Below are positions 30,963 through 59,305 of a DNA stretch of 64,000 nt, in pieces. Source of the DNA: an uncultured Monoglobus sp. (lineage in GTDB: Bacteria > Bacillota > Clostridia > Monoglobales > Monoglobaceae); contig CANRBF010000011.1 in NCBI GenBank assembly GCA_947628795.1, forward strand, positions 1-64,000. Direction: 5' to 3'. The notes under the pieces were generated by a model. It did no database searches. It was not told the origin of the DNA and saw nothing but the letters and a program-made list of their open reading frames with translations. The translations under genes and the position numbers were made by a program. How positions within the stretch are numbered: the stretch's first letter is position 1; each line of letters opens with the position of its first letter.

Positions 30963-32513
30963 TCATAAACTTATTTCGGCGGGTTCGGCCAGGGGTTTCA
31001 TGCTGTCCGTGTCGCTCCACAGCATTACTTTTATGTCCGCATTTTGCAAATTCTCGCTAAAAAACATTACATCGCCGGTATTATAATAATTCTGCATTTC
31101 AATAAGCGCGCCGTTTTTGTTATACACCGCCAAGATCACCTGCGCGTCAAAATTATCGCAATTATTGACCTTTGCAGTAACAATATAATCAAAAACCCCG
31201 GTTATCTCAACCGAAGGCGCGTTCGGGTCGGCCGTCGGCTTTGCCGTAGGCGCTGCCGTCGGCCTTTGAGTTGGCGTCGGCGTCGGTTTTGGCGTCGGAG
31301 TGGGCTTTGCTGTTGGCGTGGGTGTAGGTGTTGCTGTCGGCTTGGGAGTCGGAGTGAAATTGCTTTCCGGCCATCCCCACGCGTTATTGTAAAAACGACA
31401 GTTGTTAATGTTAAACTTAATATTGTCGCTTCCGAAAACAGTGTTTAAATTGTCTTGAAATGTACAATTGTTTAAGTTTATTTCAATATTATTTCGCCAA
31501 CCGCCTGAAAAAGCTTTATATTCGGAGGCATATCCTTTATCATACGCGTTTCTGAGAAAGGCGCAATTTTCAAATGTTGCTCCATCATGAATCAAAGCGA
31601 TACATGCCATGCAATCTCGTATAACGGTATTGCTGATTAAAGTGTTTTTACTATGATCCGTCCATAATCCGAACACGCCGCAGCCGTATATATCACAATT
31701 ATTTATTTTGACGCTCGCGCTTGAAAAGATATTGATTACTCCGTTGCCTTCACAGCCGAATTGCGGAACATCATGTCCCAATATAAGACCGTCAATCAAA
31801 ATGTTTCGCGAGTTGTATATATTTATAACTGCCAAATAACCCTTATCAACCTTTATTTCGGCTTTTCCGTTTCCGTAGACTTCCAAATTTTTGATATTCC
31901 TTATATCTACTTCATCTGTGATCAGGTATTCGCCCGGAGCCATTATAATTTTTGTGTTTGAATCAATGGCGTTGAGCAGTTCTTCGACTGTGGATACATT
32001 AACCGTTTTAAGCGGAACCGGCGTCGCGGAGCTTTCGGAATCGTTAAAATGTTTTTCGGCTTTTATCAATGAATCGTTGTTTGAACCAAAAGTTATTCCG
32101 CGCCAGTCGTTTTTACTACCGTTGTAATATACATCGATCGGAGTGTAGCAATCACCAAAAGCGCCTTCTCCAACAAAAGTCAGCTTATTTGACATCGTTA
32201 TGTTCGCGAGGCATTCGCAGCCATAAAATGCGTTAGTTCCTATATTTGTCACATCATCTTTAATTATTACGTTTTTAATTCCATATCTATATTCTTCATT
32301 GAACCATGCCGGACGATTGATCCACGTATAATCCCGCATCTCTCCCGTGCCGCTTATCGTCAGCGTACCTTCGTTGTCAAGCGTCCATTTTACATTATCT
32401 CCCTGCGCGCCGCAGTCGCCGCTTGCGATTATTGTCGCGGCGGTTGCGGGCGTGAATGTCAGCAGGGCGCAAAGGATTGTTAATACCAAACTTAAGCATA
32501 AAACTCTTTTCAT
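30963..32513 (-). CDS. Secreted BspA-type leucine-rich / right-handed beta-helix protein with Pro-Thr linker
   Basis: A 516-residue exported protein. It has a signal peptide (1-25, cleavage after ATAA); a BspA-like LRR segment (about 27-150) with SGDCGAQGDNVKWTLDNEG, GTLTISGTGEM and IGTNAFYGCECLANI; a right-handed beta-helix (about 170-385) with repeated INN/IDG/ISNT rungs such as NILIDGLILG and VKINNCDIYGCG; a PTPTPTAKPTPTPKPT linker (about 388-425); and a C-terminal module (about 430-516) ending IKVMLWSDTDSMKPLAEP, which matches the end of the M23/ricin/dockerin protein. Beta-helices of this sort bind or cleave polysaccharides, but no lyase signature is evident. The start has GGGAGGT upstream and lies only 17 nt after an intrinsic terminator, so expression needs read-through of the leader RNA at 32530-32722. 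Confidence 0.82.
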   Translation of the reverse strand: MKRVLCLSLVLTILCALLTFTPATAATIIASGDCGAQGDNVKWTLDNEGTLTISGTGEMRDYTWINRPAWFNEEYRYGIKNVIIKDDVTNIGTNAFYGCECLANITMSNKLTFVGEGAFGDCYTPIDVYYNGSKNDWRGITFGSNNDSLIKAEKHFNDSESSATPVPLKTVNVSTVEELLNAIDSNTKIIMAPGEYLITDEVDIRNIKNLEVYGNGKAEIKVDKGYLAVINIYNSRNILIDGLILGHDVPQFGCEGNGVINIFSSASVKINNCDIYGCGVFGLWTDHSKNTLISNTVIRDCMACIALIHDGATFENCAFLRNAYDKGYASEYKAFSGGWRNNIEINLNNCTFQDNLNTVFGSDNIKFNINNCRFYNNAWGWPESNFTPTPKPTATPTPTPTAKPTPTPKPTPTPTQRPTAAPTAKPTADPNAPSVEITGVFDYIVTAKVNNCDNFDAQVILAVYNKNGALIEMQNYYNTGDVMFFSENLQNADIKVMLWSDTDSMKPLAEPAEISL

Positions 32514-32529
32514 AAAAATGTACCTCCCG

Positions 32530-32567
32530 AAAATAAAAAGTGTGTGGTCTCAATCTAAACCACACAC
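32530..32567 (-). terminator. Intrinsic terminator ending leader RNA A
   Basis: An 8-bp stem GTGTGTGG / CCACACAC (32560-32567 with 32540-32547) followed on the minus strand by TTTTTATTTT. It precedes the start codon of the downstream gene by 17 nt, leaving no room for another promoter after it. Confidence 0.85.
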
Positions 32568-32722
32568 GAAAAATGCACGGCTCGGATTGTTACCACACAA
32601 TTTTAAACCTACTAGTAAAACCTCAACAGAAATAAGCTAATAGAATGAGCGCGCATTTTTGCCGAAAAAGCAAAATACGCCTATTTCTTATTGTGGTATA
32701 TTAAGTTTAAAATTATGTGGTG
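32530..32722 (-). ncRNA. Structured leader RNA, copy A (unidentified family; riboswitch-like)
   Basis: About 192 nt on the minus strand, beginning just after a promoter and ending in an intrinsic terminator. Helices (plus coordinates): closing stem 32703-32721 with 32592-32609; middle stem 32681-32693 with 32624-32636; apical hairpin 32670-32680 with 32651-32662. Blocks nearly identical to copy B at 59081-59270 are the apical GGCAAAAATGC..GCTC, the segment AACAATC.GAGC...GCATTTTTCGTGTG, and the terminator position. AAAAATGC-NN-GCTC can pair with GAGC-NNN-GCATTTTT, and AACAATC can pair with GATTG in the terminator loop. The stems differ in sequence from copy B but keep pairing, which argues for selected RNA structure. 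It is followed 17 nt later by the beta-helix gene. I do not recognise the family. Confidence 0.7.
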
Positions 32723-32727
32723 AATAC

Positions 32728-32756
32728 AGTCTATCACATGCCGGAAATATTGTCAA
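32728..32756 (-). promoter_or_regulatory. Promoter of leader RNA A
   Basis: On the minus strand TTGACA (32751-32756) and TAGACT (32728-32733) with a 17-bp spacer; the predicted start site coincides with the 5' strand of the closing helix. Confidence 0.7.
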
Positions 32757-58816: not shown

Positions 58817-59056
58817 TTATTTTAATGCGTATTTTAAGACGCGCCGACAGGTCGGACAGAGTGAAATATTTTCAAATTTTTCAAGGTCTTTTTCTTCTCC
58901 GCAGTTAGCGCAGCGCGGTACGATCCTGAAAAGCGAGACGCCTATGCCGTCAGGCAGAGGCAGCATATTCGCTTCGGAATTTGGTTTTAGATTAAATTCT
59001 TCCCTATATTTTTTGGGAATTAATATTCTTCCTATCGAATCGATCTTAACTATCAT
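58817..59056 (-). CDS. AbrB/SpoVT-type DNA-binding protein with C-terminal zinc ribbon
   Basis: A 79-residue protein. Residues 1-50 are a swapped-hairpin AbrB domain (MIVKIDSIGRILIPKKYREEF), and the C-terminus has a Cys4 zinc ribbon (CANCG ... CPTCR). Such proteins are transition-state or antitoxin-like regulators. The start codon lies 25 nt after the terminator of leader RNA B, leaving no room for a separate promoter, so its expression should depend on read-through from that RNA. TAGGATGT serves as a weak ribosome-binding site. Confidence 0.82.
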   Translation of the reverse strand: MIVKIDSIGRILIPKKYREEFNLKPNSEANMLPLPDGIGVSLFRIVPRCANCGEEKDLEKFENISLCPTCRRVLKYALK

Positions 59057-59080: not shown

Positions 59081-59119
59081 AAAATAAAAAGTGTGCAGAA
59101 CAATCAGAGTTCCGCACAC
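59081..59119 (-). terminator. Intrinsic terminator ending leader RNA B
   Basis: Stem GTGTGCGGAAC / GTTCTGCACAC (one mismatch in 11) followed by TTTTTATTTTATTT on the minus strand. Confidence 0.85.
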
Positions 59120-59270
59120 GAAAAATGCTAAGCTCCGATTGTTGCGACACAAATCCTTTTCCACTTTGAAATTTTATGCAAAGTATGTGAAAATAGAGCA
59201 TGCATTTTTGCCAAAGCAAAAACACATACTTCGCACAAACCTCAAAGTAAAATATTGAATTTATGCCGCG
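59081..59270 (-). ncRNA. Structured leader RNA, copy B (unidentified family; riboswitch-like)
   Basis: About 190 nt on the minus strand. Helices (plus coordinates): closing stem 59257-59268 with 59145-59156 (12 bp including G-U pairs); 59242-59248 with 59163-59169; 59223-59231 with 59181-59189 (9 bp); apical hairpin TTTTTGC/GCAAAAA at 59216-59222 with 59205-59211. The conserved blocks match copy A: GGCAAAAATGC..GCTC at the apex and AACAATC.GAGC...GCATTTTTCGTGTG before the terminator. AACAATC can pair with GATTGTT in the terminator hairpin. Promoter, length and terminator position agree with copy A although the stems have different sequence. It lies between the AbrB-like gene and the divergent Fic gene. 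Confidence 0.7.
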
Positions 59271-59276
59271 ATATTA

Positions 59277-59305
59277 AGTATATCACTATAGAACAATTTA
59301 GTCAA
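59277..59305 (-). promoter_or_regulatory. Promoter of leader RNA B
   Basis: On the minus strand TTGACT (59300-59305) and TATACT (59277-59282) with a 17-bp spacer. The start site is predicted at the first bases of the closing helix, as in copy A. Confidence 0.75.

Follow-up and report, generated by a model that had tools for sequence, protein, structure and literature searches.

A multi-copy family of leader RNAs with competing helices, probably transcription attenuators, in gut Clostridia

The window, a stretch of 64,000 nt from an uncultured Monoglobus sp., contains a promoter, a structured RNA and an intrinsic terminator directly in front of the gene for a putative surface protein, which raises the question of whether this leader controls the gene by premature termination and, if so, to which class of RNA it belongs. 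An earlier note, made from the sequence alone, had read the locus (copy A) as a terminating riboswitch or attenuator of an unmatched class or, alternatively, as a mobile small RNA with its own terminator, and had pointed to the same organisation at a second locus (copy B). The two copies consist of the following parts.

32728-32756, minus strand: promoter of copy A, TTGACA (32756-32751), 17-nt spacer and TAGACT (32733-32728), with TG before the -10 element
32533-32722, minus strand: copy A RNA, covariance-model match of 146 bits over the whole model
32711-32721, minus strand: 5' strand of the closing helix P1 of copy A, with P1 covariation
32670-32680, minus strand: 5' strand of P3 of copy A, a local apical hairpin that is the alternative to PK
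32647-32660, minus strand: apical strand AAAAATGCGCGCTC of copy A, with its partner either local (P3) or in the 3' tail (PK)
32592-32602, minus strand: 3' strand of P1 of copy A
32569-32583, minus strand: 3' strand of PK of copy A, GAGCCGTGCATTTTT, overlapping the antiterminator 5' strand (about 32589-32573)
32551-32567, minus strand: 3' strand of the antiterminator (AT) of copy A, overlapping the terminator 5' arm
32530-32567, minus strand: intrinsic terminator (T) of copy A, stem 32567-32540 and T run to about 32530
30963-32513, minus strand: gene behind copy A, 516 aa, BspA-type LRR_5 and right-handed beta helix (Pfam Beta_helix, LRR_5), signal-peptide-like N terminus
59277-59305, minus strand: promoter of copy B, TTGACT-N17-TATACT
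59084-59270, minus strand: copy B RNA, covariance-model match of 148 bits
59196-59209, minus strand: apical strand AAAAATGCATGCTC (P3/PK) of copy B
59121-59135, minus strand: 3' strand of PK of copy B, GAGCTTAGCATTTTT, overlapping the antiterminator 5' strand of copy B
59086-59119, minus strand: terminator of copy B, stem 59119-59091 with T run
58817-59056, minus strand: gene behind copy B, 79 aa, weak sub-cutoff match to MraZ/MazE (AbrB-like fold) and zinc-ribbon-like tail

The copy A transcript would start near 32722 at its own closing helix, and the tail AACAATCCGAGCCGTGCATTTTTC lies between the long P1-closed hairpin and the terminator. The terminator is followed by the Shine-Dalgarno sequence (SD) GGGAGG and the ATG at 32513, so closely that no further promoter would fit behind the terminator; the same holds for orthologues of copy A, as the earlier note had argued for the locus itself, and its assignment of the downstream gene to a beta-helix surface protein was likewise right. 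Because the 3' strand of the antiterminator overlaps the 5' arm of the terminator, the two structures are mutually exclusive in copy A. Copy B has the same order of parts (promoter, P1, terminator, gene). Both copies fold far more stably than dinucleotide shuffles (z -7.2 for copy A and -9.1 for copy B), with none of 200 shuffles as good. The promoter proposed for copy A was found as described; its match alone is within chance for a single stretch (1 found, 1.3 expected), and the statistics of the whole family (below) exceed those of shuffled sequence. A third copy (locus L044, G000:C11:72942-73110) lies some 9 kb past the window, still on this contig, before a secreted-protein-like gene.

A DNA search of relatives recovered many partial matches, 21 of which were used to build a covariance model. 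Searches with this model, the kind of check the earlier note had called for, identified 17 copies in the genome of origin, copies in 35 of 38 genomes of the same taxonomic family (maximum 32 per genome), and copies in 87 of 391 sampled genomes and 51 of 222 genera of the class Clostridia. A phylum-wide draw of 199 genomes at E <= 1e-8 returned the home genome only (0 of 198 others), which shows the model to be specific and suggests that the RNA family is confined to some members of the class Clostridia. When the tail was searched as a DNA pattern, 36 contigs matched, 35 of them true members; almost all carry the names Oscillospiraceae, Ruminococcus, Ruminiclostridium or Clostridia MAGs, and most come from animal guts; the contig of a Desulfoscipio MAG (L169) matched the pattern without a covariance-model match and was rejected. 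One genome of the same genus (G008; one contig, 99% complete) has zero copies, compared with 10-32 in most others of the genus, so that gain or loss could be studied by setting it against its copy-rich relatives. For a single leader class, 17 copies here and up to 32 in relatives are many.

Gathering-level scans with Rfam 15 gave no match in the window, including none to raiA, 6S or c-di-GMP models at the copies, and none at the RNA itself in 20 diverse loci. Permissive scans returned only sub-threshold matches for copies A and B, mainly to eukaryotic microRNA and snoRNA families, and a best E-value of 0.075 for two Ruminococcus-group copies. No description of the RNA family was found among open-licence papers, and a prior description outside Rfam is possible. 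The family appears to be an undescribed structured RNA; its members number in the hundreds, its hosts are abundant gut Clostridia that for the most part have not been cultured, and it comes with a usable consensus and a clear model of two states that can be tested.

The family promoter is TTGACA-17-TGnTATAAT, with at least 9 of 12 matching positions in 183 of 205 copies compared with 47 in shuffled sequence. Its -10 element ends 5-6 nt before P1, so the RNA begins with its own closing helix. P1 is paired in 21 of 21 seed sequences and covaries at most positions, while P2 is variable in sequence and length. The apical strand, AAAAAUGCnnGCUC, has two complementary partners, the preceding strand (P3) and, at long range, the tail GAGCnnnGCAUUUUU (PK); the tail in turn has a second complementary partner in the 5' arm and loop of the terminator (AT; GGAGUUAUGCA and UGCGUGGCUUC in a Ruminococcus-group example). 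PK and T are compatible with each other, AT excludes both, and the alternatives are therefore PK with T or P3 with AT. Mean stabilities are near-equal for AT (-15.1 kcal/mol) and T (-14.7 kcal/mol), which is what a switch needs. The AT loop contains a conserved UUUUUCG(G), and a conserved U run follows the apical strand. In some stand-alone copies (L096, L097, L098, L087 and L102) a segment behind the terminator is complementary to the P1 3' strand and tail, e.g. GCTCCGGTTGTTGTCACGC; read-through RNA could use it for refolding, and this complementarity is not significant for stand-alone copies as a class.

Competing helices of near-equal energy could also arise if the unit were a constitutive promoter and terminator that merely insulates the gene or lowers its expression, in which case termination alone would account for low expression and the alternative helices would be chance complementarity. 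We compared pairing energies within and across 210 distinct copies, with relatedness between copies left in place in this and the other covariation and permutation tests. PK strands pair better within copies (-15.1 kcal/mol) than across them (-12.4 kcal/mol, z -18.8), as do those of AT (-15.3 and -12.1 kcal/mol, z -17.2); T has a z of -28.9, P3 of -12.9 and P1 of -38.6, the all-copy P1 value and a P1-containing control being usable for direction only owing to a sentinel energy from some very short P1 strands. The sentinel-free P1 values of the genome of origin are -13.4 within and -5.4 across copies. Two unrelated pairs of segments gave z of 0.1 and -0.7. The 17 paralogues of the genome of origin alone show the effect for PK (z -4.6) and AT (z -5.6). 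By pair counts in 115 distinct aligned copies, PK is 94.7% paired, with changes on both sides in 8 of 14 pairs and 89 double-change cells compared with 31 in shuffles and 4-23 in slid versions; AT is 85.5% paired compared with 27-65% when slid, a weaker result than for PK. Support for a conserved antiterminator that excludes the terminator is thus moderate by pair counts and strong by the duplex test, and among the narrower set of Ruminococcus-type copies these two helices, AT and PK, are nearly invariant and add almost no covariation. The covarying PK joins the apical strand to the antiterminator 5' strand and so couples the upstream, putative sensor domain to the antiterminator. That AT and PK covary both within a single genome's paralogues and between families, with no such signal in control pairs, makes a constitutive terminator very improbable.

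Copies A and B are probably members of a multi-copy family of cis-acting transcription attenuators that resemble terminator-type riboswitches, a reading in line with the earlier note and favoured by the covarying competing helices, more than 200 homologues and a short distance to the start codon in most copies. RNA polymerase would start at P1 and produce a long hairpin (P1, the variable P2 and the apical P3), the apical strand of which would either remain within P3 or form PK with the tail. In the putative off state PK would occupy the tail, T would fold and transcription would stop after about 190 nt; in the on state P3 would remain closed, the tail would pair with the terminator 5' arm and loop as AT, and polymerase would read through into the gene. 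The balance between PK with T and P3 with AT would be shifted by a signal, which might be a metabolite, an ion, a protein, an RNA or temperature. From the attenuator model we infer the direction of switching, the read-through and the existence of a ligand.

As for the nature of the signal, in our judgement a small molecule or ion has somewhat less than an even chance, RNA, temperature or another signal is rather unlikely, and a protein is unlikely. The small number of conserved unpaired nucleotides for a typical small-molecule aptamer counts against the best explanation. It would suit a variant of the attenuator in which a protein, e.g. a cold-shock or LicT-like protein bound at U-rich loops, locks either P3/AT or PK. 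The conserved AT loop, the U run after the apical strand, the few other conserved unpaired bases and the equal stability of AT and T all speak for such protein-dependent antitermination, but no candidate protein gene was identified and we regard the variant as improbable.

The genomic context bears on whether the RNA acts in cis, as the attenuator model supposes, or is a trans-acting or stand-alone small RNA, a unit of about 190 nt with promoter and terminator of its own, for which the position in front of genes is secondary and the bistable fold serves RNA-RNA or protein binding. By a simple ORF-assignment script, which makes the context classes approximate, SD and start codon follow within 160 nt in 141 of 213 distinct copies (about two thirds), a same-strand start codon within 45 nt in 111 of 213 (mode 16-20 nt), and convergent, distant or no gene is found behind 49 of 213 (about a quarter). 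Tandem copies are 47-153 nt apart, and each is as a rule preceded by a separate promoter, its -10 element about 5 nt before P1. AT (z -10.0) and PK (z -11.4) are as strong in the 67 copies that are in tandem or without evident downstream gene as they are in leaders. Read-through into a gene is hence not the sole purpose of these two helices, unless antisense, short-ORF or tandem read-through is controlled there. These copies speak for a stand-alone RNA and lend partial support to the small-RNA alternative of the earlier note. On the other side are the close gene linkage of most copies, which includes nearly all of the Ruminococcus/Oscillospiraceae set (31 of 33 are leaders), and the gene of copy A and its orthologues, where another promoter has no space; we consider a purely stand-alone RNA doubtful. 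The RNA family may have an additional role in trans beside attenuation.

The mobile part of that alternative did not stand, as the tail pattern had no match among viral contigs or plasmids and two 'phage' records are metagenomic fecal sequences. The better of the two (MT835845.1, L244), filed as 'Bacteriophage sp.', is a bacterial-looking contig with YicC-like and ClpB-like reading frames (by eye), in which the leader precedes a lipoprotein-like gene.

The downstream proteins (n = 88) are mostly exported and comprise LRR_5 (BspA-type, n = 20), Cu_amine_oxidN1 (n = 5), GDSL lipase, CHAP, CAP, SLH and peptidase M23 families, along with AbrB-like (MazE/AbrB-like, n = 4) and other small proteins and one Spo0A_C. 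About half of the Ruminococcus-group downstream proteins (15 of 31) have a lipobox-like motif. The family suggests that exported proteins of the gut Clostridia that carry it respond to a single common signal. A far-reaching version of the attenuator model, to which we give little credence, would be a widespread new riboswitch class of gut Clostridia in which an intracellular signal sets, at up to about 30 loci simultaneously, a large share of the surface and secreted proteins, with terminated leaders pairing in trans via complementary apical and tail strands as a cross-talking RNA network.

Two other kinds of neighbouring gene were observed. A small Cys-rich protein (M-I/L-IDVTGI-LTPGN-GKDC-GNG..ECCCDEC) recurs behind the RNA in several genomes (L046:1282-1485, L199:1272-1484, L201 and L240), and a Pfam scan of two examples (L046 and L199) gave no family match. 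Copies L113 and L116, from two genomes of the taxonomic family, are located about 157 nt upstream of a gene assigned, by N-terminal sequence only, to a TypA/BipA-like GTPase.

A known class in disguise (6S RNA, raiA, T-box, c-di-GMP or leader-peptide attenuator) is most improbable. The new RNA shares with 6S RNA (RF00013) a length of about 190 nt, an own promoter and one long hairpin, but it occurs 17 times in this genome, in most cases linked to a gene, and its switch helices are conserved; RF00013 gave no match at copies A and B, and the canonical 6S RNA of the genome is a separate locus (80.1 bits). T-box, raiA and any other Rfam 15 family lacked a gathering-score match at the RNA in the window and in the 20 diverse loci, and a leader-peptide attenuator was rejected because SD and start codon occur inside the hairpin domain in just 15 of 213 copies. 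The raiA motif (ModT) is similar in length to the new RNA. Type III toxin-antitoxin RNA loci likewise have a promoter, a structured RNA, a terminator and a gene reached by read-through. The raiA motif is, as here, a structured RNA of Bacillota (PMC11706538), whereas the new RNA has no Rfam match and is a multi-copy leader with terminator exchange. Compared with type III loci of the CptIN type (PMC4627078), it is without tandem antitoxin repeats and precedes varied, mostly exported genes rather than toxins. The closest functional parallel are the terminator-type c-di-GMP-I and -II riboswitches, which also have their own promoter, a structured leader, exclusive terminator and antiterminator, many copies per genome and an exported-protein regulon that includes surface proteins, yet the new RNA has no sequence or covariance match to them, a different architecture, and tandem and stand-alone copies with their own promoters. 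As judged from its sequences, it would work like a terminator-type riboswitch yet is a member of no family tested. The c-di-GMP-I model (RF01051) matched beside copy L049 and not on it: three c-di-GMP-I riboswitches in a row (L049:168-631, minus strand) adjoin this copy, and both kinds of control are thus neighbours in that genome.
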